A stretch of 49,739 bases of DNA. Source: an uncultured Rubrobacteraceae bacterium (GTDB lineage: Bacteria; Actinomycetota; Rubrobacteria; Rubrobacterales; Rubrobacteraceae). The stretch covers positions 1-49,739 of the forward strand of contig CADCVE010000018.1 in the NCBI GenBank assembly GCA_902806065.1, written 5' to 3'. Below, piece by piece: positions 581-46,225 of this stretch. The position numbers and the translations under genes were made by a program. How positions within the stretch are numbered: the stretch's first letter is position 1; each line of letters begins with the position of its first letter. The notes under the pieces were generated by a model that had not been told where the DNA came from, did no database searches, and saw only the letters and a program-made list of their open reading frames with translations.

Positions 581-1684
581 ATGAGTTTTGGAGATAACCC
601 TGGTCGCGGCGAGAACCTCCAAGGGGAGGGACAGCAACAAGCCCTTCAGAAGATGACTCGGGGTTCAGCGGATACTTATGCGAGTATGTTTGACGTGGCG
701 CTCTTCCCTTTCCTTCTCTACCAGCAGAGTCTGGCTATGGCTACCCGGTTTGCCCTAGGTAGCCTGCGAGCCGCTACCGGGGTTGCTCAGCAGGGCATGC
801 TGGGGGCCAGTCAGCCCGCTCGACAGAGCGCCGAGGCTGCCGAAGGGGCCAAGCGGGGTAACATGCAGCCTGCTCAGCAAAGCACCACCACGGATGTTGC
901 CACGGATCGAACCTTACAGCATGGTATTGAGGTGGGCGACGAGACCGCCTGGCAAGATATGGAAGCCATCAATCGAGCCGCCCAGGATAAGATGAGGACG
1001 GCAAGCCGGGCGGCTCTTCAACAGGATGCTGGGGCAACAGAAGAAACCACCCGGGAGGGCTACGCGGAGACGGCCGACCGGCCCCCCACAGAGGTGGACG
1101 AGGTTGCCTCCGGCCCATCGAAGCCGGCACCGACTCCTTCCCTGGAGGCACCGAACGCTATGGGAGAGCTGCCTCCTTCACCAGCTGCGGAGGCTACGGT
1201 CAGACCTGTCGCCGAGGCTGGCGTCGACGAGACTAATGAGGGCAGTACGGAGACGAGCAGCGGGGCCGAGAGGGCGGCGGGCGACGAGACTACCTCTCCA
1301 TCGGCTTCGGTACCTACGGTTCAGGAGGAGTCCCTGATTGCCGAAGAACCCTCTCCAACCCGAGAAGAATCCCCTACCGACGAAGGAACTAACACTATCG
1401 AGGAACTACCTCCACCCCCCGAAGTGTCAGAGGTAGATTTACCTCCTCCACCCCCGGTACCATCGAACATCCTTGAGGAGCTACCTCAGTCGCAGGACAA
1501 GTTGCCCACCGCCCAAAGCGCGCGTGGAGAGAAGCCGCGGATACACGTGAGGAAGGGCACGGCAGCGGCCCGGCGTACGGCCGAGGAGCTAAACGTGAAC
1601 CTCGATGAGGTCGAGGGAACGGGCCGGAACGGTCAGATCACAGTCGGGGACGTACGCAAGAAAGCCGCGGACAGAAAGCCCTGA
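581..1684 (+). CDS. PHA-locus protein with C-terminal E3-binding-like domain
   Basis: 367 residues; the ATG has AAGGAG 11 bases upstream. Residues about 30-75 are hydrophobic/amphipathic (FDVALFPFLLYQQSLAM), resembling the granule-binding helix of phasins. The middle (about 80-315) is acidic, Pro/Glu/Ser/Thr-rich and probably disordered, with two Pro-rich runs (ELPPPPEVSEVDLPPPPPVP). The last 45 residues fit the peripheral subunit-binding (E3-binding) fold: AARRTAEELNVNLDEVEGTG, then NGQITVGDVRKKA. That fold normally holds E1 or E3 on the E2 core of 2-oxoacid dehydrogenases, but there is no lipoyl or acyltransferase domain here. PhaE across the convergent boundary ends with the same domain. 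Function is inferred: a granule-surface adaptor. Confidence 0.65.
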   Translation: MSFGDNPGRGENLQGEGQQQALQKMTRGSADTYASMFDVALFPFLLYQQSLAMATRFALGSLRAATGVAQQGMLGASQPARQSAEAAEGAKRGNMQPAQQSTTTDVATDRTLQHGIEVGDETAWQDMEAINRAAQDKMRTASRAALQQDAGATEETTREGYAETADRPPTEVDEVASGPSKPAPTPSLEAPNAMGELPPSPAAEATVRPVAEAGVDETNEGSTETSSGAERAAGDETTSPSASVPTVQEESLIAEEPSPTREESPTDEGTNTIEELPPPPEVSEVDLPPPPPVPSNILEELPQSQDKLPTAQSARGEKPRIHVRKGTAAARRTAEELNVNLDEVEGTGRNGQITVGDVRKKAADRKP

Positions 1685-1733
1685 CCGCACCGCCGATTCC
1701 GGTATCCTCTTTGTTCGCGGGGGCCGGGTAAGT

Positions 1734-1773
1734 TAAAGGGGACGGGAGCCGTTTGTGGCTCCCGTCCCCTTTA
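1734..1773. terminator. Shared hairpin between convergent genes
   Basis: Perfect 17-bp inverted repeat (1734-1750 with 1757-1773, loop GTTTGT) between two convergent stop codons. The arm ends in TTTA, so it may act in both directions. There is no long T run. Confidence 0.6.
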
Positions 1774-1793
1774 CGCTGCTTGTAGAACCTTCC

Positions 1794-2876
1794 TTAGGCG
1801 CCGGAGCGGGTTTCGAGCCAGGTGTCGATCTTTGGCCAGAGACCTTTCTTGGCTCCACGTCCGGTCATGAGGCCGACGTGGCCGGCGTCGAGGACGAAGA
1901 ACTCCTTGTCCTCGCTGGAGATGAGATCCATAAGTGCCTCGGCCTGCGGCAGGAGGCAGATGTGATCCTTTCTGCCGGCGATAGAGAGGAGGGGGACCTC
2001 TATCTTCGAGAGGTCCACCTGGCGGCCGCGCAAGCGGAACTCACCCTTTACCAGCTTGTTCTGCTGGTAGAACTCCTTGATCCAGGTCTTGAACGCGGCG
2101 CCCGGGAAGGGCGGGCCGTCGTTGACCCACTTGTTCATCGCTAGCCAGCTCTCCATCGGCTTGTCCTCGAAGATGCGCTCCCACATGTTGACGTAGGTGC
2201 CGACGTAGTTGGTGACCGGTTTCAACATCCGGTTACCCGTGTCGATAATCTCACCGGGTATGTTGCCGAAAGAGTCGGCGAGCAGGTCTGGGTCGAGGTA
2301 CTTCTCGTCGGTGAAGAGGCTGTAGGCGCCCATCGCCTCCCGCGGGAAGTGAACGGGCGTAGTAACCATCACGAGGTTCTTGAGCTTCTCCGGGAAGAGC
2401 GAGGCGTACATCGCGCTCATCGTACCGCCCATGCAGTAGCCGAGGAGCGTAAACTCGTCGGCGCCGGAGGTCTTGAGGACCTTCTTTACCGCGCGGGGCA
2501 GGTAGTCTAGGACGAGGTGCTCAAAGTCGATATCCTTGTCCTCGTCACCAGGGATGCCCCAGTCGAGCAGGTAGACGTCGAAGCCCTGGCTGGTGAGGTA
2601 CTCGACGAAGCTATTACCCGGCAGAAGGTCGAGGACGTAGGGCCGGTTGATGAGGGCGTAGACCATGAGGATCGGGACGGGAAACTTCTTCTCCGCGGCG
2701 GGCTGGTAACGATAGAGCTTCGCCTTGTTCTTGGTCCAAACTACCTCTTTGGGGGTCCGGCCGGTGTCGGCCTGGGCGCCTTCGAGAAGGACCCGCATGC
2801 CCGCGCTGTACTTGTCGAAGAAGCTCTGAGCCTCCAGGGTAGCCGAGCCGCCGTTGGTGCCTGCGCGTTCAACCAT
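1794..2876 (-). CDS. phaC: Class III poly(R)-hydroxyalkanoate synthase, subunit PhaC
   Basis: 360 residues, the usual length for class III PhaC. It polymerises (R)-3-hydroxyacyl-CoA into PHA at the granule surface, in complex with PhaE. The alpha/beta-hydrolase core has the PHA-synthase box GYCMGG with nucleophile Cys148. The other triad members are Asp304 (GRKDHI) and His333 (DAGHVG). The ATG follows the TAG of phaE with no gap, so the two subunits are probably translationally coupled. Family and class are clear; side-chain length preference cannot be read from the sequence, although class III enzymes normally prefer short-chain monomers. Confidence 0.95.
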   Translation of the reverse strand: MVERAGTNGGSATLEAQSFFDKYSAGMRVLLEGAQADTGRTPKEVVWTKNKAKLYRYQPAAEKKFPVPILMVYALINRPYVLDLLPGNSFVEYLTSQGFDVYLLDWGIPGDEDKDIDFEHLVLDYLPRAVKKVLKTSGADEFTLLGYCMGGTMSAMYASLFPEKLKNLVMVTTPVHFPREAMGAYSLFTDEKYLDPDLLADSFGNIPGEIIDTGNRMLKPVTNYVGTYVNMWERIFEDKPMESWLAMNKWVNDGPPFPGAAFKTWIKEFYQQNKLVKGEFRLRGRQVDLSKIEVPLLSIAGRKDHICLLPQAEALMDLISSEDKEFFVLDAGHVGLMTGRGAKKGLWPKIDTWLETRSGA

Positions 2877-4100
2877 CTAGCTTGCTCCCTTCCTACGCAC
2901 GTCGTCTACGGTAATCTGACCGCCAGTTCCCGTTCCGTCCACGCCGGACAGATTCAGGCCAAGCTCCTGCGCCTTGCGCCGTGCCGCCGCGGTCGCATTT
3001 ACCTCCGAAGCACCTTCCTGTGAGGTCTCCGCCTGCGAGGCTTCTGCCTGCGAGTTTGCGTCCTCTTGCTGAGCTTCCGTCCGGGCGGTGCCATTCTGGC
3101 TGGACCTTTCGAGGGCGGCGAGGATCTGATCGATCTTGCCCTCGACGTTGTCGAGCCTCTTCTCGAGACTGCCTACCGCGTCGGCGGTGGCGGCTTCCGG
3201 GGAGGCGTCCGCCGAGTTGGAGATGCTTTCGAGCTTGTTCTCCAGGCCGGTGAGGTGCTCTTCGATGGAAGCAAGGGACTCGGCGTTGCCGGAGGTGGCC
3301 TGCTCGGAGGCGGCCTGACTATCCTCGAAGCCTTCGAAGGTGTCTTCGAGGTCCTCGATCTTATCCTCCAGAGCTAGTACGAGTTCAGCGACCCGCGTGA
3401 TGTCCGAGCGCACGGGGATGGAGAGGTTCTTGAGGTACTCCTCGGAGTTGCGCCGGAAGACCTTGGAGAAGCTGGCATAGTTCTGGAGAAACTGACTGGA
3501 GATGTCCAGTATGTCCTCGCGCTCTAAAAGGTCCGAGAGGAAGTCGGAGATGGGACCGTTCGTCGCGTTGTACAGGCGTGTGGAGAGTTGCAGCGGATCG
3601 CTCGGGAACCCGTCAGCACTCAGAAGATTGTTCCGGATTTGGTCTAGCGCCGCGATCCAACGCGGGGTCAACTCGACTGCTTCTTGTGTAAGCGCGATGC
3701 TCTTACGCCAGGATTCCTGAGTCTCCTGGGACCACTGGTTCCACAGGTTCCGCACTTCGGCTGCCTGGCCCGCCGCCGCGTCACTCGCAGGCTTGAGCGC
3801 CGCGCCCGGATTCTGTGCCGCCGGCTCGGTCGCTGGGTTTGCCGCCGTCGGCGGGTGGCCGTTGCTTACCGCCGTCAGACTATTGTTGCCCGCCATCATC
3901 GATGGCCAACCTATCGCCCCAAACATCTGCTGGAAGCCCTCCAGACCGTCGAACCACTGCTGATAGACCTTATTAGGGTCCGCGTAGTTCTTCCGCCCGG
4001 CCTCGAATACGCTCGACCACATCGCGGCGCTCGTCTCGTACCACTGCCTCCAGAGCTCCGTCGGGTCCATCATGCCCCGTCCGCTCCTCGTTTTGCTCAC
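2877..4100 (-). CDS. phaE: Class III PHA synthase subunit PhaE with C-terminal E3-binding-like domain
   Basis: GTG start at 4100, chosen because AAAGGAG lies 9 bases upstream; an in-frame TTG at 4106 is too close to that site. 407 residues. The N-terminus (DPTELWRQWYETSAAMW) and the LYNATNGP region match PhaE, the non-catalytic activator of PhaC. Residues about 230-340 form acidic, coiled-coil-like heptads (LEDKIEDLEDTFEGFED; LEKRLDNVEGKIDQI). The last 40 residues are an E3-binding-like domain (TAAARRKAQELGLNLSGVDG, then GGQITVDDVRRK), which is not part of the classical PhaE. It heads the phaE-phaC operon, with a good promoter upstream. Confidence 0.88.
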   Translation of the reverse strand: MSKTRSGRGMMDPTELWRQWYETSAAMWSSVFEAGRKNYADPNKVYQQWFDGLEGFQQMFGAIGWPSMMAGNNSLTAVSNGHPPTAANPATEPAAQNPGAALKPASDAAAGQAAEVRNLWNQWSQETQESWRKSIALTQEAVELTPRWIAALDQIRNNLLSADGFPSDPLQLSTRLYNATNGPISDFLSDLLEREDILDISSQFLQNYASFSKVFRRNSEEYLKNLSIPVRSDITRVAELVLALEDKIEDLEDTFEGFEDSQAASEQATSGNAESLASIEEHLTGLENKLESISNSADASPEAATADAVGSLEKRLDNVEGKIDQILAALERSSQNGTARTEAQQEDANSQAEASQAETSQEGASEVNATAAARRKAQELGLNLSGVDGTGTGGQITVDDVRRKGAS

Positions 4101-4739: not shown

Positions 4740-4835
4740 AGAGCCTTCCTGTCTCTCATGCTAATCGCTGTGGTCGACTCCGGAGAACCCGGTGGTCTCG
4801 GCCCACGAGGGGAAGGGTTTCGACCGCCGGGCGCA

Positions 4836-4889
4836 AAGCCAGCAAAGCTTCCGGGGCGGGGACGCGTGGCGGCGTCCATTTGCTGGCTT
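4836..4889. repeat. 11-bp inverted repeat
   Basis: AAGCCAGCAAA (4836-4846) and TTTGCTGGCTT (4879-4889) are perfect inverted copies with 32 bases between. They lie between the small broken ORF and the isomerase-like gene. No T run follows, so this is not an obvious terminator. Confidence 0.4.
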
Positions 4890-4911
4890 CGCAGGCACTG
4901 CCAGGCTCTTG

Positions 4912-5232
4912 TCAGGAGGTCGTCGTGTTCCAACGGTTGCGGACGTCTTCGGCAAAGGCGGCGTACTCGCGCACGGGGAGGACCTGCTCGAACTCCAGGT
5001 AGTGAGCCATCGGGAGACCGGCCATGATGATCTGGTCCAGTTCGTCGGTGGACTCGACGTCGAAGACGGCCAGCACGCGCCGCTGTCCGGAGACTTTATA
5101 GAGCGCCACGAGCTTGCCTGCTTCCAGTGCTCCTAGCGCGGCCTTCGTCTCCTCTTCCCAGACCTCCCAGAGTTGGTCGAGCGAAGAGAGTTCCCTCTCG
5201 GGGTCCACCTTTATGTCCGTAAAGATCAGCAC
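4912..5232 (-). CDS. Muconolactone delta-isomerase-like protein
   Basis: 106 residues from a GTG with AAGGAGGAG upstream. The pattern LVALYKVSGQRRVLAVFDVE, then DELDQIIMAGLPM, matches the small ferredoxin-like muconolactone isomerase family (about 90-100 residues), whose classical member acts in the beta-ketoadipate pathway. The gene starts 13 bases after the acyl-CoA ligase stop, so the two form an operon. No other aromatic-degradation gene is present, so the name describes the fold rather than a proven substrate. Confidence 0.7.
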   Translation of the reverse strand: MLIFTDIKVDPERELSSLDQLWEVWEEETKAALGALEAGKLVALYKVSGQRRVLAVFDVESTDELDQIIMAGLPMAHYLEFEQVLPVREYAAFAEDVRNRWNTTTS

Positions 5233-5245
5233 GTTATTCTCCTCC

Positions 5246-6931
5246 TTATGCTTCGGTCCGTGCCTGGTCCCTGAGCTCGCGCCTCAGGAACTTACCGGTC
5301 GCGGTCTTTGGCAATTCGTCCATAAACTCGATCTCGCGCGGGTACTTGTAATCGGCCAGCCTCTCCTTGCAATACGCGACCAAATCCTCCGCCGCGACTC
5401 CGTCCCCGTCTTTGAGGGCGACGAAGGCCTTTACCGTCTCGCCGCGGTAATCGTCCGGGACGCCGACCACGGCGGCCTCTTTGATTTGCGGGTGAGTGTA
5501 GAGGGTGTCTTCGACCTCGCGCGGCCAGACCTTGTAGCCGGAGACGTTGATCATGTCCTTTTTGCGGTCCACGATGTAGAACCAGCCATCCTTATCCATG
5601 ACCGCCACGTCGCCGGTCAGGAAGTAGCCGTCCTGGAAAGCATCTTCGGTCTCCTCGGGCTTGTTCCAATAACTGGAGAAGATCATCGGTCCTTTGGCCG
5701 CGAACTCACCGGACTCACCGGCCGGGACCTCCTCGGAGGGGTCTTCCACGCTGACCAGTCGAGCCTCGCAGTTTGGTACCGGTACGCCAATGGAGAGGGC
5801 GCCGCTCCCCTCGTCTACCGGGGCGCGCCCTCCGAGAGGTACGAAGTGGGTCGGGGAGTTGCTCTCGGTAAGGCCATAGGCGTTGTGGATGTAGATGCCG
5901 AACTTCTCCTCGAACTGCTCGGCGATGCTTGGGGCTATCGGGGCGCCACCGCTATAGCATTTCTTTAGAGAGGAGAGATCCCGGCCCCCGGAGTCCGGCG
6001 CGTTCATCAGCGCGATAAAGACCGTTATGGAACCGATGGTCATCGTCGGCCTCCACTTCTCGATCAGGCGCAGAGCCTCTTCGACGTCGAAGCGGTGGAA
6101 CAGGATAAGCGGGACCCCGGCGATTCCGGCGAGCGCCGTATGGCCGATGAGGCCGGTTATGTGAAAGAGCGGCGCGACCCCATAGATGCTGTCCTCATCG
6201 CCGATCCGCATCCAGGTGCGGTAGACCTCGGCGTTGAACGCGACGTTGGAGTGCGTCTCTATTGCCCCTTTGGGCTTCCCCGTGGTCCCGGACGTGTACA
6301 CGATGTAGGCTATGTCCTCCGGCGAGACTCGTGCACGCGCCTCCGCCGGGTCCGGCTCGGTCTCGCGTAACGTCTCCAGGAGGTCGTCTGTCTCCTCGAA
6401 ACGCCGCCTCTCGACACCCGCCAGGATGCCTGTCTCGCCAGCGCCGTCCGGTAGAAAGTCCAACTCGCTGGTGGTGAAGACGTGCTCGACGGCGGTGCCC
6501 GGTACGACCGCCCTGGCAACGGTTTCGTAGAGGCTTTCCAGGCAAACGAGCATCTTCGCGCCGGAGTCGTTGAGGTGATAGTCGAGCTCCTTCTCCTTGA
6601 GCATCGGGTTGATCGGGACTACCACGGCGCCACGCTTCCAGGAGCCGTACTGGGCGACGAGGAACTGCGGGTTGTTCTGAGTGTAGATGGCTACTCTATC
6701 GCCCTTCTCGACTCCCCGCGCAGCTAGCAGCGTCGCGAAGCGGTTGGCGAGATCGTTCAGTTCCCCGTAGGAGATGCTCTCGTCGAAGTAACGGACGGCG
6801 TCACGCTCGGGGATGCGCTCTACCGACTCCTCGAAGAGATCGATCATGCTCCTCTCCGGTAGAGGTAACTCCCTGGGTACGTGATCGGCATACCTCCCCA
6901 GCCACGGCTTGCTCTCGTATACAGAGGACAC
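5246..6931 (-). CDS. Long-chain fatty acid/AMP-dependent acyl-CoA ligase
   Basis: GTG start at 6931, supported by AAGGAG 6 bases upstream; a longer frame begins at 6976. 561 residues, typical of FadD-like enzymes that adenylate a carboxylic acid and form its CoA thioester. The ATP loop YTSGTTGKPKG is at residues 212-222. Further on are YGLTE, the YFLTGDVAVMD hinge motif and the C-terminal catalytic lysine in LPKTATGKFLRREL. It is co-transcribed with the isomerase-like gene and divergent from the alcohol dehydrogenase. Substrate is not readable. Confidence 0.85.
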   Translation of the reverse strand: MSSVYESKPWLGRYADHVPRELPLPERSMIDLFEESVERIPERDAVRYFDESISYGELNDLANRFATLLAARGVEKGDRVAIYTQNNPQFLVAQYGSWKRGAVVVPINPMLKEKELDYHLNDSGAKMLVCLESLYETVARAVVPGTAVEHVFTTSELDFLPDGAGETGILAGVERRRFEETDDLLETLRETEPDPAEARARVSPEDIAYIVYTSGTTGKPKGAIETHSNVAFNAEVYRTWMRIGDEDSIYGVAPLFHITGLIGHTALAGIAGVPLILFHRFDVEEALRLIEKWRPTMTIGSITVFIALMNAPDSGGRDLSSLKKCYSGGAPIAPSIAEQFEEKFGIYIHNAYGLTESNSPTHFVPLGGRAPVDEGSGALSIGVPVPNCEARLVSVEDPSEEVPAGESGEFAAKGPMIFSSYWNKPEETEDAFQDGYFLTGDVAVMDKDGWFYIVDRKKDMINVSGYKVWPREVEDTLYTHPQIKEAAVVGVPDDYRGETVKAFVALKDGDGVAAEDLVAYCKERLADYKYPREIEFMDELPKTATGKFLRRELRDQARTEA

Positions 6932-37878: not shown

Positions 37879-38073
37879 ATGGGAGTTCTCGTGGGAGATG
37901 CGGGCTACAAGGTGGTCGTGGTGATGTTCTTCGGGGAGAAGGAGGTTGGGCGCTTCCCGACGCGAGAACAGGCCGAGTGGCGCGCCAGGGAGATGAAAGA
38001 GTGGGCGGAGAGGAACCCGCGCGGGTATCTGCAATATCTCGTGAGGCCGGTGGATAAACCGGCCGACGGCTAG
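37879..38073 (+). CDS. Small hypothetical protein, 64 residues
   Basis: ATG at 37879; a GTG at 37891 with GGGAG 5 bases upstream may be the true start. Reads YKVVVVMFFGEKEVGRFPTR, then a charged helix (EQAEWRAREMKEWAERNPRG) and a final strand. The beta-beta-alpha-beta layout with codon use like the neighbours supports a real gene. No family recognised. Divergent from the CoA-transferase operon. Confidence 0.5.
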   Translation: MGVLVGDAGYKVVVVMFFGEKEVGRFPTREQAEWRAREMKEWAERNPRGYLQYLVRPVDKPADG

Positions 38074-38223: not shown

Positions 38224-38262
38224 AAAAAAGTACGGGGTCTCTCCTCAAGGAGAGACCCCGTA
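38224..38262 (-). terminator. Intrinsic terminator of the Asp/Phe-repeat gene
   Basis: 14-bp perfect stem (38231-38244 with 38249-38262, tetraloop) followed on the minus strand by a C and six T. Confidence 0.85.
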
Positions 38263-38303
38263 TAAGATCTGCGGTCGGAGATTAAGCCGCCCGAACCCTC
38301 GTG

Positions 38304-38645
38304 TTACTCCTCGATGAAGAAGAAGCCGTCCTCGAACTCTATCTCGTCATCATCGAAGTCGATCTCACCGATGAAGAAGAAGCCGTCCTCGAAGTCGAAG
38401 TCATCATCGTCCTCGAAGTCGAAGTCATCACCGAGGAAGAAGAAGCTGTCATCGAAGTCGAAGTCATCATCGAAGTCGAAGTCATCCTCGAAGTCCCTGT
38501 CGTTCCCAACAGTGATGAAGGAGTCTACGTCCGAAACGTTCCCCTCATTGGACGACTCCTCAGCCATGGCGGGTCCGGCCGAGACCGTCAGTAGCATAGT
38601 AGCCGCCGCAAACCCTGCCAGCAAACGCGCCTTCAAATTACTCAT
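38304..38645 (-). CDS. Secreted Asp/Phe-repeat miniprotein of unknown function
   Basis: 113 residues. Signal peptide at 1-28 (RLLAGFAAATMLLTVSAGPA, then MA before EE). After a short linker, residues 51-113 contain 33 acidic residues, 20 phenylalanines and no basic residue. Three imperfect repeats of about 20 residues each end in an FFF triplet (68-70, 89-91, 108-110), as in DSFFFLGDD, DGFFFIGEI and DGFFFIEE. A perfect AGGAGG lies 6 bases before the ATG and is part of a small hairpin. A strong terminator follows. I know no matching family. Alternating D-F pairs suggest calcium-dependent assembly or amyloid-like strands (inference). Confidence 0.8.
   Translation of the reverse strand: MSNLKARLLAGFAAATMLLTVSAGPAMAEESSNEGNVSDVDSFITVGNDRDFEDDFDFDDDFDFDDSFFFLGDDFDFEDDDDFDFEDGFFFIGEIDFDDDEIEFEDGFFFIEE
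38307..38495 (-). repeat. Tandem coding repeat of the Asp/Phe protein
   Basis: Repeating GAC/GAG-TTC codons giving DFDF, FEDD and FFF units. Three units of roughly 60 bases are recognisable from the spacing of the FFF triplets (21 and 19 codons). Such DNA is prone to slippage. Confidence 0.65.
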
Positions 38646-38649
38646 CGAT

Positions 38650-38666
38650 CTACCTCCTATAGGTAG
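38650..38666 (-). promoter_or_regulatory. Hairpin over the ribosome site of the Asp/Phe-repeat gene
   Basis: On the mRNA CTACCT pairs with AGGTAG across a 5-base loop, and the Shine-Dalgarno AGGAGG is partly inside the stem. Weak (6 bp), so it could melt with temperature. Confidence 0.35.
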
Positions 38667-38887
38667 TTGCTTTTAAGACACACTAGATGATACCGCTCAG
38701 GCAGATATGTGCAATGTGAATATAGATGTAGGGTGAGGATCTTCATGGAGACTCGCATTTGTTTAGGTCGGACATCCTGCCGGACGATGCGGCGCCGAAC
38801 ACGAGGAGCGCGGCCTTCTGCGGGCCGTATATGATCTGGAAGGGTTAGGCTGGCGCTGAATGATCGCGAATCGTGTATCTTGTGCCT

Positions 38888-39220
38888 CTACTTCAGGGGA
38901 TCATGGCCCCAATTCATGAGGGAGTAGCGCCATTTGGTATCTCTTGTATCGCCCTTGGGCTCCTGGGCCTGGTGGCGGTGAACGTAGCTTACGATGTCCC
39001 TCATGTGAGAGATGTCGTCCTTGGAGTAGTCGGACTCGTCCTTTTTAAGGATCTCGACGATCCTGCGACCCGACTCATGACCTCTGGACTCGCCACCGCC
39101 GTCCTTCTGGCCGACGGACTTAGACTCGTCGGTTTTCAGCCACTCCTCCAGTTCACCGGCGCCCATATTTACCGCTTCTTGAAACTCCTCCACCACTTGC
39201 TCGTCGCTTTTCTTGGCCAT
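38888..39220 (-). CDS. DUF3140 domain protein
   Basis: 110 residues. The family signature is visible: ELEEWLKTDESKSVGQKDGG, SRGHESGRRIVEILKK, DDISHMRDIVSYVHRHQAQE and the C-terminal RYSLMNWGHDPLK. Soluble, highly charged, often found near DUF2945 proteins in actinobacteria and proteobacteria, as here. Biochemical role unknown; a DNA-associated or stress role is often assumed. Confidence 0.85.
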   Translation of the reverse strand: MAKKSDEQVVEEFQEAVNMGAGELEEWLKTDESKSVGQKDGGGESRGHESGRRIVEILKKDESDYSKDDISHMRDIVSYVHRHQAQEPKGDTRDTKWRYSLMNWGHDPLK

Positions 39221-39638: not shown

Positions 39639-40598
39639 TTAGCGGTGGTTGATGCGCCGGATCAGGAGTCCTCCGACCAGTAGCAACCCGGCGGACGCGG
39701 CGAAGAGGCTGAGAGGCGCCATGCCGCCGGTGACCGGAAGGGTGCGCTCGCCGGTCTTCTCGGTGGCCTCGCGCGCGGCTTCGCTGACGGAGGCAGCGAC
39801 CTCGCCATCGGTTGCGTCTATCGAGCCGTCCCCGTTGACGTCCTCGCCGCTCTCGGGAGAGGTGGGCTCCGACGTGCCGCCGGAGCCTCCGCTACCGGAG
39901 CCGCCGTTGTTGGGGGTGGGGGTCGTGGTGTCTCCCCGGTCCCTTTTGAAGTTGATTCTGGCCTCGAAGGTCCTGTCCTCTTCGAGCGGCACCAACCCGA
40001 AGTCCCGGATCACCTCTAGGTTACCGCCGTTCTCCTGGACTATCCGAACCGACAGCGAGACCGGCTCGGCACCCGGCGGCACTGGCCTCGGCCCCGGTGG
40101 GAACCTGGGTACGGTTACGCTGCCCGTGAAGACGCCGTCGCCGTCGGGGTCCGTGAGCGGTGTACCGGGGCCTCCCTCGCCGACCGCGGAACCAAAGAAC
40201 CTCGTGCCCGCGGGCGGTGTGCCCTTGACGGTCAGCTCGAACGAGAGCGTGACCGTATCCTCGCCCGGCGGAGGACCGGGTGGATCGTCCGCTGGCGTTA
40301 CCTGAGTGACATCCACGGCGAGGGGGCCGTCCGGTGTACCGGGGCCGGGTGCCTGCGTCCCGCTAATTGTGACCCTCTCGCCCACGTAGGCTTCCAGTTC
40401 CGCGCCGGCGTCGAAGAGCTCGTAGGAGGTGTCCGACTCTTCGTCGGTTATCGCGTAGCGGGGGGTAGGGTCCGGGCTTTCTCTCGTGGACCTCTCCAGT
40501 ACCCCGGTCGCCGTGACCTGCCCTTGCGCCAGCACCGGGACCGCGGCGACTAGCAACGCCGCCAGCATCCCGATCAGGATTACCAGCCTCTTTTTCAT
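39639..40598 (-). CDS. LPxTG-type sortase-anchored surface protein (LPVTG)
   Basis: ATG at 40598 with AAGGGGGA upstream; 319 residues. Signal peptide 1-24 (KKRLVILIGMLAALLVAAVP, then VLAQ). Residues about 28-95 form an OB-like module (TATGVLERSTR; YAITDEESDTSYELFDAGAE; GERVTISG). About 110-225 is a beta-sandwich module (VTLSFELTVKGTPPAGTRFF; LTDPDGDGVFTGSVTVPRFP) shared with the two other surface proteins upstream. A Gly/Ser/Thr linker with an EF-hand-like DVNGDGSIDATDGE leads to the anchor: LPVTGG, a membrane helix and a basic end RRINHR. It sits next to the class E sortase gene. Confidence 0.85.
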   Translation of the reverse strand: MKKRLVILIGMLAALLVAAVPVLAQGQVTATGVLERSTRESPDPTPRYAITDEESDTSYELFDAGAELEAYVGERVTISGTQAPGPGTPDGPLAVDVTQVTPADDPPGPPPGEDTVTLSFELTVKGTPPAGTRFFGSAVGEGGPGTPLTDPDGDGVFTGSVTVPRFPPGPRPVPPGAEPVSLSVRIVQENGGNLEVIRDFGLVPLEEDRTFEARINFKRDRGDTTTPTPNNGGSGSGGSGGTSEPTSPESGEDVNGDGSIDATDGEVAASVSEAAREATEKTGERTLPVTGGMAPLSLFAASAGLLLVGGLLIRRINHR

Positions 40599-40708
40599 AA
40601 TTCCCCCTTTACGAAACCTAACAACTACGCGTAAATTCTCTCGTTTTTCTCCCGAGCCTGCAACCTTGAAAAGCACAACCCCAACGCTTCGACATACAAG
40701 AACATACT

Positions 40709-41275
40709 CTAGGCGAGCAGCTCTCCCCGGACGACTAGGCGGTCAGCGTAGTCCGGCAGGGTGCAGGTCTGTAGCGAGACAATACTCTTGCCGGGCACGG
40801 GGTCCAGTACTTGCGTGTCTTCCGGCCCCACAACCAGCGACTCCGTAACCCGGTAGACGTACCTGTCTCCGGCTTCGTCTTCAAGAATTATCTCGTCACC
40901 GGGTCCCAGTTCGTTCAGCCGGAAGAAGACCAGGAAGGAGTCAGTGCCGAAGAAGCCCATGCGGTGCCCCGCGAGGTACGTGTTCGCGCCGGGCTGCCAG
41001 GGGAAGCCGGTCTCGGGCAGGTGGATAGCCGAATCGTCGAGGTCCTCTTCGGAGGAAGAGTTGTGTATTTCCAGGTCTTGTATTCCGACCTCGGGTACCG
41101 TCAAGTAGAGGGTCCCGTCGGCGGGAGACTCCGCCTCTGCGGGCGAGGTCTTGGCCCCGGTCGGGATGCTGCCCGCCGTGCCACCCGGAGGACCGACGAA
41201 GAACAGGGCTACGAGCCCCAACCCCACCAGGATCATCACCGTCCCGAGCATCCTCACGAACCCTCTCAACATCAC
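40709..41275 (-). CDS. Class E sortase
   Basis: 188 residues; ATGATG after AGGAAGG. One N-terminal membrane helix (GTVMILVGLGLVALFFVG) and an extracellular catalytic domain. Triad: His104 (LAGHRMGFFGT), Cys171 (SLQTCTLPDYADR) and Arg179. Class E sortases of high-GC Gram-positives usually cut LAxTG-type signals; here the neighbours carry LPxTG forms. An LPETG string occurs inside the enzyme itself at 86-90 (HLPETGFPWQPG), just before the active-site histidine. Located between two genes for likely substrates. Confidence 0.9.
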   Translation of the reverse strand: MMLRGFVRMLGTVMILVGLGLVALFFVGPPGGTAGSIPTGAKTSPAEAESPADGTLYLTVPEVGIQDLEIHNSSSEEDLDDSAIHLPETGFPWQPGANTYLAGHRMGFFGTDSFLVFFRLNELGPGDEIILEDEAGDRYVYRVTESLVVGPEDTQVLDPVPGKSIVSLQTCTLPDYADRLVVRGELLA

Positions 41276-41394: not shown

Positions 41395-43056
41395 CTACCT
41401 GGTAAGCCTACGTACTGTGAGACCACCGCCGATCAGGAGGATACCAGCGCCGAGCGCCGTAAGGGCCATGCCGCCGCCCGTGCTGGGGAGGAAATCCCTG
41501 ATCCCACCATCGACACTACCGGAACTATCGCTACCGGAGCCGCCGTTGCCGGAGCCAGTGCCGTTACCATCCTCGAAGGAGACGCTGGCCGAAAGGGTCG
41601 TGTCCTCTTCGAACGTGACCTCGCCGAAGTCCTTTATGGTGGTTACGGGATCTCCGGGGGAGGTGCCCACGACCTGACTCTCTCGCGTCCCCGTACCCTG
41701 CACTATCAAGGCGGGTTGCGTGTCTCCGGTGGTCACCAGGTTGGGGGGCGTGCTGCCGGTATAGACACCGTCGCCGTCCGGGTCAGATAGCTGGAATGGA
41801 GCCGGCTCGTAGCCGAGGTAGCCGAAGAAAGTCGCGTTCGTGGGAGGCTTGCCCTCGACGTTCAACTCGAACGCAACCGCGACCTTTTCTTCGCCGGGAT
41901 CTTCCGCCGCATCGACCTTGTGTACGTCGATCAAGGGCGGGCCACCCTCGACCTGCCCGGCCTCGTACCCGGGCACCAGGGCACCGTACAGGGTAACCCG
42001 CTCACCCAGGTAATCGTCGAGGTCCACGACGTTACTCCGCAGCGCATAGAAGGTGTCAGACGCATCGTCCGTGATGGCATGGGTGCCGTACTGATAAGTC
42101 GTGGCGCCCGGTTTTTCGAGCGTACCCGTCGCCTCGACGACCGTGATCTCGTTGTCGGGGTCACCGACGCGGTAGGTTGCGCTCACGGTCTCGTCCTCGG
42201 TAAACGTCCGGGTGTCGGCGGCGAAGCTTTCGACGACGCCACCGTAATCGTAGTCCACGACGGTGTACTCGTAGGAGAGGGGTTTGTTCGCCGGCACCTC
42301 GAAGGTGTCGCTGTAGGTCTCGCCGTCTTCGCAGAACGGCAGGTCGCCGAAGTCCGCGGTGGTGCAGAAGACCGGATGGGCGATGTCCTGTAGGCCCGTG
42401 CTCACGCCTATACTTCTCCCCTCGGGCACCTGGCCGTCGATGGTCAGCTCGAACGTTACCGTGACCTCATCGTCGGGGGTGCCTGGGTCAGGATCGACGG
42501 GGCCAGGGCCGCCGGGAAACGAGGCGCTGGCCGAGAAGGTCTGGTCGTTCATCGGCACCGCGCCGAAGTCCCTAATAACCTTGATCGGCGCGCCGGGGAT
42601 GCTCCCCTGGGTCCCCGTACCCTGCACTATCCGGACCCCGAACGCCAGCGGCTCCACGCCCGGCGGTACCGGCCTCGGCCCCGGCCCGAACCTGGGCGTG
42701 GTCGTCGTGCCGGTATAGACACCGTCACCGTCCGGATCCGTGAGCGGCGTGAAAGACCCGGGGCCACCCTCGCCAGTCTGCAAGTTGCCAAAGAAGGTCG
42801 CGTCTGCGGGAGGCTCGCCCTCGACGGTAAGCTCGAACGAAAGCGTGGCGGTCTCCTCGCCCGGTGGTGGCCCGGGGGGAACGTCGTCCTCCGGCTCTTC
42901 CTTGGGGGCGCTGACCTGCCTGGGGGTCCCTTCTTGCGCCGGGGAGGGAGCGTCCTTCGGTCCGGCTTCCGGGGCCGCTCCCTGAGCCAGGGCCGGGATC
43001 GCGGCCACCAACGACACCGCCAGAATCCCTACCAGTACCATTAACCTCTTCGCCAT
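41395..43056 (-). CDS. Multi-module LPxTG-type sortase-anchored surface protein (LPSTG)
   Basis: 553 residues; ATG with GGAGACGG upstream. Signal peptide 1-24. Three beta-sandwich modules: about 55-180 (ATLSFELTVEGEPPADATFF), 195-305 (VTVTFELTIDGQVPEGRSIG; two Cys, VFCTTADFGDLPFCED), and 385-495 (VAVAFELNVEGKPPTNATFF). One OB-like module lies at about 310-375 (VEATGTLEKPGATTYQYGTH; YLGERVTLYG). The recurring DPDGDGVYTG loop could bind calcium. Anchor: LPSTGGG, hydrophobic helix, RRLTR. Domain shuffling with its neighbours is obvious. Ligand unknown; carbohydrate-binding or adhesive role is inferred. Confidence 0.85.
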   Translation of the reverse strand: MAKRLMVLVGILAVSLVAAIPALAQGAAPEAGPKDAPSPAQEGTPRQVSAPKEEPEDDVPPGPPPGEETATLSFELTVEGEPPADATFFGNLQTGEGGPGSFTPLTDPDGDGVYTGTTTTPRFGPGPRPVPPGVEPLAFGVRIVQGTGTQGSIPGAPIKVIRDFGAVPMNDQTFSASASFPGGPGPVDPDPGTPDDEVTVTFELTIDGQVPEGRSIGVSTGLQDIAHPVFCTTADFGDLPFCEDGETYSDTFEVPANKPLSYEYTVVDYDYGGVVESFAADTRTFTEDETVSATYRVGDPDNEITVVEATGTLEKPGATTYQYGTHAITDDASDTFYALRSNVVDLDDYLGERVTLYGALVPGYEAGQVEGGPPLIDVHKVDAAEDPGEEKVAVAFELNVEGKPPTNATFFGYLGYEPAPFQLSDPDGDGVYTGSTPPNLVTTGDTQPALIVQGTGTRESQVVGTSPGDPVTTIKDFGEVTFEEDTTLSASVSFEDGNGTGSGNGGSGSDSSGSVDGGIRDFLPSTGGGMALTALGAGILLIGGGLTVRRLTR

Positions 43057-43380: not shown

Positions 43381-44391
43381 TTAGCGGGTGGCGCGCCGGA
43401 TCAGGAGGCCGCCGCCGACTAGCAGGGCGCCCACCAGGCCCAGCGCCGGAATAGCGCCACCCGTCCTGGGCAACTCCTTCGTCTCGCCGCCCGAAGACTT
43501 ACCGCTGGCCTTGATCTCGCCGCCGCCGGAGCCACTGCCGCTGACAGAAGCACTGCTTCCAGAGCCGCTGCCGGAATCGCTGCTGCCGGAACCGCTGCTG
43601 CCAGAACCGCCGGGACCGACATAAGCTTCGCACTCCTCGGGGTTGGGGCTCAACGCCAGGCACTCATCCGTGGGCTCCTCGGGGATCACGGAGCCTTTCT
43701 TGAAGTTGACCTTGGCCTTGAACGCCTTATCCCCGTCGAGCGGAACCACACCGAAGTCCTTTATCACGCTTGGCTCGCCTGGACCGAACGGACCCTGCTC
43801 CACCTGCACTATCCGGACCGACAATGCTACCGGAGGCGTCCCTGGCGGCACCGGCCTCAGCCCTGGCGGGAACCTGGGTACGGTCACGCTGCCGGTGAAG
43901 ATGCCGTCGTTGTCTGGATCTGTGAGTGGCACCCCGGGGCCTCCCTCGCCGACCGCGGAACCAAAGAACCTCGTGCCCGCAGGGGGCGTGCCCTTGACGG
44001 TCAGCTCGAACGACAGCGTGACCGTATCCTCGCCCGGCGGCGGGCCGGGGGAGGGGCTGTCCGTCGGCTCTACCCGGGTCACGAACAGAACGTCGAAGTC
44101 GCCTTCGAGCATTTGTGGGGTCCCCTGGAGAGTGACTTGCTCGCCCACGTGGTCCCTGAGATCCACTCCCCCGCCCGGGTGGGCTGGGTCGCTCAATAGC
44201 TCGTATGTGGTGCCCGACGCCTCGTCGGTTATGATGTGGTGCGCGCACTCGTTGCAATCACGTACGAGGTCCCTTATAGTTCCCGTCACGGTAATTTCCC
44301 CCGGCGGCAGAACCCCCTGTGCCATCGCCGGCACCGCCGTCACGAGCAACGCTATCAGCATACCAACCAGTACCATTAACCTCTTTGCCAC
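43381..44391 (-). CDS. LPxTG-type sortase-anchored surface protein (LPRTG)
   Basis: GTG at 44391 with AAGGAGG 5 bases upstream (the frame is open to 44424); 336 residues. Signal peptide about 1-25 (KRLMVLVGMLIALLVTAVPA). OB-like module about 30-105 with two Cys (RDCNECAHHI; GEQVTLQG), then one beta-sandwich module (VTLSFELTVKGTPPAGTRFF; LTDPDNDGIFTGSVTVPRFP) almost identical to that of the LPVTG protein. A Ser/Gly linker of about 50 residues leads to LPRTGG, a membrane helix and RRATR. Recent duplication among the three surface genes is likely. Confidence 0.85.
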   Translation of the reverse strand: MAKRLMVLVGMLIALLVTAVPAMAQGVLPPGEITVTGTIRDLVRDCNECAHHIITDEASGTTYELLSDPAHPGGGVDLRDHVGEQVTLQGTPQMLEGDFDVLFVTRVEPTDSPSPGPPPGEDTVTLSFELTVKGTPPAGTRFFGSAVGEGGPGVPLTDPDNDGIFTGSVTVPRFPPGLRPVPPGTPPVALSVRIVQVEQGPFGPGEPSVIKDFGVVPLDGDKAFKAKVNFKKGSVIPEEPTDECLALSPNPEECEAYVGPGGSGSSGSGSSDSGSGSGSSASVSGSGSGGGEIKASGKSSGGETKELPRTGGAIPALGLVGALLVGGGLLIRRATR

Positions 44392-44470
44392 GACCGCCTC
44401 CTTCTGACTCTCTGTAGTTAACAAACCTGAATAAACTCTATCGCTCTACTCATTAAGTCCGCATCCGTCA

Positions 44471-45289: not shown

Positions 45290-45628
45290 TTGAAGAAAAT
45301 AATGATGTTGGCGGCGCTTCTGGCTATGTTGGTCGTTGCGGCCGTTCCGGCCATAGCGCAGGTCGGGCAGGACTTCGAGCAGGAGACCGAAAGCGGCGAG
45401 GTCGAGCAGACGTTCGAGGTTTCCGGTTCTGGTAGCAACGGCAACCAGTGTGTCAACGTCAATGGCACTGCGAACACCGGTAACCTGCAGAACCAGAGCG
45501 GCTCCATCCAGTACGCTTCGGACATCGAGGAGTTCGAGCAGGAGGACATCGGCTCTGACCTTTCGGTCAGCGGCAACGGCACGGTTACTTGCGACCAGCA
45601 GGTCAACCAGGCTGCGGCGGCTGGCTAA
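45290..45628 (+). CDS. Secreted 112-residue protein with two cysteines
   Basis: TTG at 45290 with GGAGGGG upstream. Signal peptide 1-23 (MMLAALLAMLVVAAVPAIA). The mature 89 residues are acidic and rich in Asn, Gln, Ser and Gly, with only Cys54 and Cys101, which could form one disulfide. A loose internal repeat is visible: FEQE (29-32, 82-85) is each followed by a VSGxG stretch, a cysteine and a QVN- or VNVN-type segment. No family recognised; composition recalls surface assembly proteins such as chaplins but the pattern is not theirs. A hairpin terminator follows. Confidence 0.7.
   Translation: MKKIMMLAALLAMLVVAAVPAIAQVGQDFEQETESGEVEQTFEVSGSGSNGNQCVNVNGTANTGNLQNQSGSIQYASDIEEFEQEDIGSDLSVSGNGTVTCDQQVNQAAAAG

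Positions 45629-45721: not shown

Positions 45722-46225
<504 letters not shown>

Follow-up and report, generated by a model that had tools for sequence, protein, structure and literature searches.

Standard searches mask secreted low-complexity proteins, which have rarely been studied in bacteria. Among the described systems closest to the locus considered here, the chaplins of Streptomyces (PF03777) are secreted surface proteins that have expanded within their lineage, the short ones free and the long ones anchored by sortase, and they set the precedent for this combination (PMC5618241). SspA of Actinoplanes missouriensis, a sortase-anchored putative disordered protein, is needed for matrix strength (PMC13293333). 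Designed Glu/Phe peptides such as p(eF), in which D-Glu alternates with L-Phe, have no order by themselves but give beta-sheet solids when combined with polycations that bear Phe, pi-interactions being important in these solids (PMC8271475). RTX and DDxP aspartate-rich repeat proteins are also secreted, and RTX binds calcium.

In this work, we describe a small gene for a repeat protein of acidic residues and Phe (P0001), located in a window of 49,739 nucleotides (the whole stretch of DNA analyzed, contig CADCVE010000018.1) from an uncultured Rubrobacteraceae bacterium. The gene belongs to a secreted low-complexity acidic-aromatic family of which clear paralogues exist; one domain is repeatedly fused to its members, some partners are anchored, and a short tag may serve in sorting or assembly. 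The genus itself shows a heavy expansion of secreted surface proteins.

A secreted repeat protein with its own expression signals

The initial annotation had recognized a secreted Asp/Phe-repeat miniprotein with its own ribosome-binding site and terminator, and both descriptions hold (Table 1). Behind the signal peptide and a linker, residues 51-113 form a tract of 63 residues with 24 Asp and 9 Glu (33 acidic) and 20 Phe, the rest being 4 Gly, 4 Ile, 1 Ser and 1 Leu, with neither Lys nor Arg. With cleavage judged by eye to fall between AMA and EE, the mature protein has 85 residues, a net charge of about -38 and a single Arg, R50, immediately N-terminal to the repeats. The tract consists of three 21-residue repeats, tandem at the DNA level too, the first two being identical at 12 of 21 positions; each contains FFF, as had been proposed, but L, I or IEE comes after the triplet, which is not strictly the repeat end. 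The C-terminus (...FFFIEE) lacks the LPXTG motif, hydrophobic stretch and basic tail of wall-anchored proteins. The terminator has a folding energy of -28.2 kcal/mol (z -6.5 vs shuffled sequences), and no sigma70-like promoter was found for the gene.

Table 1. Positions of the features of the window and of related loci elsewhere
Feature	Position	Strand	Remarks
P0001, D/F-repeat secreted protein, CDS	38304..38645	-	113 aa; from translation; paralogues elsewhere
P0001 signal peptide, residues 1-28	38562..38645	-	MSNLKARLLAGFAAATMLLTVSAGPAMA; by eye: K/R n-region, hydrophobic core, AxA site
P0001 linker, residues 29-50	38496..38561	-	EESSNEGNVSDVDSFITVGNDR; 22 aa
P0001 repeat 1	38433..38495	-	DFEDDFDFDDDFDFDDSFFFL
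P0001 repeat 2	38370..38432	-	GDDFDFEDDDDFDFEDGFFFI
P0001 repeat 3	38307..38369	-	GEIDFDDDEIEFEDGFFFIEE
Ribosome-binding site AGGAGG	38653-38658	-	by eye; 7 nt from P0001 ATG
Intrinsic terminator after P0001 stop	38225..38262	-	stem 38231-38262; 14-bp GC-rich stem, 4-nt loop, T6
DUF3140 gene	38888..39220	-	Pfam; upstream flank of P0001, synteny marker
Small ORF	37879..38073	+	downstream flank of P0001; conserved in G002, G006, G009
Sortase, neighbouring island (context only)	40709..41275	-	Pfam Sortase 2.5e-27; TIGR01076 above cut-off
Secreted protein, LPXTG-like C-terminus	39639-40676	-	flanks sortase
Secreted protein, LPXTG-like C-terminus	41395-43056	-	flanks sortase
Secreted protein, LPXTG-like C-terminus	43381-44424	-	flanks sortase
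Partner domain alone	45290..45625	+	signal peptide + QDFEQETESGEVEQTFEVS...CDQQVNQAAAAG; domain elsewhere fused to D/F modules
LPXTG wall-anchored Pro/Ala-rich protein	45722..46225	+	Pfam Gram_pos_anchor; tail type fused to partner domain in L084, L085
Partner-domain loci			L037, L056, L063, L066, L069, L072, L075, L078, L080-L086 and others
L051, diverged partner domain (G004)	1486-1950	-	pre-domain slot PFFFNNGVPNNGFFFNQPQPFNNG instead of acidic spacers
L058, diverged partner domain (G004)	1492-1914	-	same pre-domain slot
L012, tag	1423-1737	+
L092, tag	2327-3013	-
L093, tag	1528-2229	-
L094, tag	894-1562	+
L096, tag	1485-1631	-
L180, tag	1121-1621	+
L181, tag	near 2788-2847	+
L185, tag-bearing DUF11-like remnant	51000-54500	-	G000, C91
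L061, acidic-aromatic secreted protein	2635-3027	+	low-complexity
L089, acidic-aromatic secreted protein	1448-1813	+	low-complexity
L091, acidic-aromatic secreted protein	3062-3481	+	low-complexity
L095, acidic-aromatic secreted protein	1471-1812	+	low-complexity
L098, acidic-aromatic secreted protein	4803-5336	-	low-complexity

The tract is not a product of chance, since the highest count of D/E/F in any stop-free 63-residue stretch of the window is 53, reached by the P0001 tract, against 23 once the gene is removed and 18 at most among 60 first-order Markov resamples of the window. The opposite strand has open frames as well (38301-38594 and 38314-38676), and one of these, with a V/E or K/S repeat, could in principle be the true gene and the D/F reading its shadow. 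These frames mirror the same DNA without signal peptide, ribosome-binding site or terminator, whereas those signals and all paralogues agree with the minus frame, and we give the antisense reading practically no credence. On these features, the D/F-repeat ORF is a real gene, forming a single-gene transcription unit for a small, predicted exported protein.

P0001 matched nothing in Pfam or NCBIfam and no PDB sequence, and no known family matches it; EF-hand, RTX and dockerin signatures were not found in its Pfam scan. Scans of genome contigs and viral contigs gave no confirmed relative, a result weakened by low-complexity filtering, which was possibly on in the tblastn confirmation, and none was found in plasmids and phages with BLAST low-complexity filtering on, which weakens that result too. 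The literature search returned nothing matching an acidic/Phe-rich secreted bacterial repeat protein. The AlphaFold model (pLDDT 50, pTM 0.19) has no strands and very low confidence, and neither supports nor excludes calcium-bridged fibres or mineral binding.

A genus-restricted family of D/F modules

Protein searches of the genome itself identified a stretch 75% identical to P0001 on contig C43 and a common leader on C8. Pattern and profile searches located D/F module members at L012 (C43), L037 (C1), L056 (C91), L066 (C96), L097 (C99) and L089 (C48), and at L016 in the congener G001, with related modules at L075 (C1) and L061 (G001). In the profile search, six other sequences of the own genome (C91, C96, C99, C43, C1 and C48) matched over almost the full length, with more matches in G001 and G004; as a lower bound, the own genome encodes at least six further secreted proteins of this kind besides P0001. 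In other genera, profile matches mainly cover the leader part, and across the family the DGFFF pattern is mostly background outside the genus.

As composition alone can inflate scores, pairwise module scores were compared with residue-shuffled controls. P0001 exceeded these controls against L012 (z 7.0, 0/1000 shuffles) and L097 (z 3.9, 0/1000), and did not rise above composition directly against L037, L066 or L075. Further, the pairs L012-L037 (z 4.7), L037-L016, L037-L056 (z 7.0) and L016-L056 (z 7.0) fell within z 4.7-7.0, L056 reached z 4.0-4.5 with L075 and L061, and L075 and L061 scored z 19.7 with each other. The family is therefore connected stepwise, from P0001 to L012 and L097, from L012 to L037 and then to further members; judged by these controls, residue order is conserved in it, and not composition only. 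Across 39 aligned codons, differences between P0001 and L012 are far more frequent at silent than at replacement sites (pS 0.45, pN 0.105; Fisher p 0.0007 with counts rounded to whole numbers, a small sample and a D/E exchange bias), so the protein sequence is being kept and the module is, by this comparison, under purifying selection.

The P0001 type of leader is also present in paralogues L014 and L243, and the 5' DNA from the ribosome-binding site into the leader is homologous to that of L014a (score 60 vs shuffle maximum 23). P0002, in L014, is a neighbouring family member that is even more acidic, with 80 acidic residues out of 177. Having both the leader and an acidic-aromatic module of conserved order, P0001 is, on sequence grounds, a member of a lineage-specific, genus-restricted family of secreted D/F+FFF modules; the earlier view of it as an orphan, with no family like it, gives way to paralogues in its own genome and a congener. 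More secreted low-complexity acidic-aromatic proteins were observed, some with Tyr or Trp replacing Phe (Table 1).

A partner domain and a C-terminal tag

A hitherto undescribed secreted domain of ~85 residues, here called the partner domain, has the consensus FEQExESGDVDQSFxVSxxGDNxNQCxxVxGxANTGNxQ...CxQxVNQAA (in short, SGDVDQSF...NQC...NTGN...CDQQVNQAA); it is acidic and Asn/Gln-rich, usually with two Cys. There are ~19 intact copies in the own genome, ~11 in G001 and ~10 diverged ones in G004. In the own genome it occurs alone, with D/F modules, behind a Gly-rich linker, or with a Pro/Ala linker and LPXTG anchor (L084, L085 and L086). The D/F module lies between leader and partner domain in L037, L056, L066 and L075 (own genome) and in L016 and L061 (G001). 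The domain had no match in Pfam or NCBIfam and no significant PDB sequence match, and AlphaFold gave no usable fold (pLDDT 52, pTM 0.18). In the phylum sample, clear matches were confined to the genus, those in other genera being weak and mostly in the leader, and a domain-alignment scan of the genome contig collection returned the G001 record only.

The diverged G004 copies L051 and L058 keep FFF with Asn/Pro spacers in the slot between leader and partner domain, so the shared feature is the aromatic triplets and not acidity, and it is probably aromatic clustering that has been conserved. This bears on a different role, that of a cation sink or mineral binder whose disordered polyelectrolyte repeats would bind Ca2+, Mn2+, Fe or mineral, with Phe serving for adsorption only and no polymer being formed. 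The strong negative charge of P0001, the still more acidic P0002 and the disorder suggested by AlphaFold at low confidence agree with such a role; nevertheless, acidity is not invariant, FFF spacing and Phe content go beyond the needs of an ion sink, and EF-hand, RTX and dockerin signatures were not found in Pfam, and we regard this role as unlikely.

The first ~21 residues of the partner domain are also the exact C-terminus of other secreted proteins, mostly ending ...DQSFEVS-stop. The nearest P0001 paralogue, L012, ends ...SQSFEQESESGDVDQSFDVS-stop, which is the 21-residue tag, and has no full partner domain; further bearers are L092, L093, L094, L096 and one protein on C24, with a slightly shorter tag on C90. 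The tag-bearing proteins otherwise differ, DUF11 being detected in L092, L093 and L180. That the tags are merely frameshifted domains was rejected, as no domain remnant lies downstream in any frame for L092, L093, L094, L096 and L012, the check for L094 covering short DNA only. At L185, a tag-bearing DUF11-like remnant comes immediately after an alpha/beta-hydrolase-like gene, and an apparent second partial copy of that hydrolase comes next, an arrangement that suggests recombination.

The recurrence of the tag on different secreted proteins underlies a broader proposal, namely an undescribed modular surface-assembly system of the genus. The ~85-residue domain (free, wall-anchored or D/F-fused) would form polymers, the tag, taken as its first strand segment, would recruit unrelated secreted proteins by strand complementation, and the free D/F protein would cross-link through FFF clustering triggered by cations or drying. 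We advance this scheme tentatively and consider it doubtful as a whole.

Genomic context

In the near-complete congener G002, the genes for Hva1_TUDOR, DUF3140, the small ORF, CoA transferase and acyl-CoA synthetase stand in the same order without the D/F gene, and the distance from DUF3140 to the small ORF is ~430 bp vs ~815 bp here. In G006 and G009 the small ORF and CoA transferase are retained, the D/F gene being absent within the DNA examined. Apart from the syntenic absence in G002, all such absences should be taken as tentative, since the own genome is a 112-contig assembly and the others are MAGs of 75-95% completeness. As it is absent from a syntenic site with its flanks kept, the D/F gene is a single-gene unit that was gained or lost; for the same reason, its closeness to the sortase island, to which the initial annotation had attached meaning, is incidental, and a functional link to the island drawn from position was ruled out on synteny. 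Around the sortase lie three secreted proteins whose C-termini are LPXTG-like and which contain repeated similar segments (Table 1); genes like them adjoin Hva1/DUF3140 in G002 (L187) and a second DUF3140 copy in G000 (L189).

Absence from close relatives together with frameshifts had been put forward as the evidence that would count against the gene. The absence is found at the syntenic site, but no frameshift was seen and the protein is conserved relative to silent sites. Another explanation is that of an evolutionary leftover, in which the domain was lost from a duplicated D/F-plus-domain gene and a slippage-prone GAC/TTC repeat persists without function. It agrees with the presence of the gene at this site only in the own genome, with the tandem DNA structure and with the C43 paralogue ending with only the first 21 partner-domain residues; the intact ribosome-binding site, leader and stop, the strong terminator, a pS well above pN against the closest paralogue and a leader common to family members at other loci make it rather improbable.

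A candidate surface-layer or matrix component

For P0001 as a Sec-exported acidic-aromatic low-complexity structural component of a cell-surface layer or matrix, we put the chances at about even. Fusion of the D/F module to a surface domain that also has a wall-anchored form suggests a sticky coat or matrix component. Asp/Glu repulsion would keep the chain soluble during export; outside the cell, FFF clusters and alternating D-F stretches would act as stickers, holding to one another and to the FFF modules on domain-bearing paralogues when the charge is screened by drying, acid or divalent cations. Such association would make or stiffen a surface layer. Anchored partner-domain proteins would tie this layer to the wall and the free D/F protein would fill or space it, a division of labour like that between the long chaplins, which are anchored, and the short ones, which are free, though the sequences are not akin. 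Calcium-bridged assembly of putative fibres is possible; the unordered state of p(eF) alone implies that a partner or counter-ion would be needed, which fits a protein so poor in positive charge.

Several results count against this structural role. P0001 lacks the partner domain, its 21-residue N-terminal segment and an anchor, being linked to the partner-domain system via paralogues only; with most individual domain-fused modules it scores no higher than composition would give, and L012 provides the connection; AlphaFold yields no confident structure for P0001 or for the partner domain; positive charge is so scarce in P0001 that it would self-assemble only with cations or at low pH; and the D/F gene is dispensable in the genus, given its absence from the syntenic site in congeners. 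A surfactant or hydrophobic coat would be another use for a small, secreted protein with several paralogues and a strongly amphipathic pattern of alternating D-F and FFF: it would adsorb at air-water or mineral interfaces and alter wetting, as chaplins and BslA do, without bulk matrix. The role of short chaplins is analogous (PMC5618241), but more than 40% of P0001 residues are charged, unlike chaplins, and the Pfam scans gave no hit to the chaplin domain, which leaves this use quite improbable. Should the D/F module assemble on cation binding or drying, as the structural role supposes, designed Glu/Phe peptides would have a counterpart in nature, and the switch of acid-rich, Phe-rich chains from soluble to solid outside the cell could be studied in a simple model.

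Comparison with known systems

The paralogues C43/L012, C1/L037, C91/L056, C96/L066, C1/L075 and C99/L097, and L016 and L061 of G001, resemble P0001 in Sec leader, FFF module and residue order; the majority have the partner domain or the 21 residues that begin it, whereas P0001 is the module alone. LPXTG wall-anchored proteins differ from it at the C-terminus. RTX and DDxP proteins share secretion and Asp-containing repeats with P0001; however, RTX proteins have glycine/aspartate nonapeptides, with no Pfam match in P0001, and use type I secretion, whereas P0001 has a Sec leader and a Phe-rich 21-residue repeat, and DDxP proteins have at least 900 residues compared with its 113.

The p(eF) peptides alternate an acidic residue with Phe as P0001 does, but they are synthetic, of mixed chirality and studied with polycations, and lend P0001 chemical plausibility only (PMC8271475). 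SspA is likewise an actinobacterial low-order surface protein, likened here by description and not by sequence, and is wall-anchored by its own signal, unlike P0001 (PMC13293333).

With respect to the chaplins, neither P0001 nor the partner-domain family matches PF03777 in Pfam, the partner domain differs in being ~85 residues long, acidic and Asn/Gln-rich, and D/F modules are not in the chaplins described in PMC5618241. Most chaplins, like the partner domain, have two Cys, and free and sortase-anchored members sharing one domain are found in the partner-domain family, though not in P0001; this parallel would be one of likeness in working, and not of membership.
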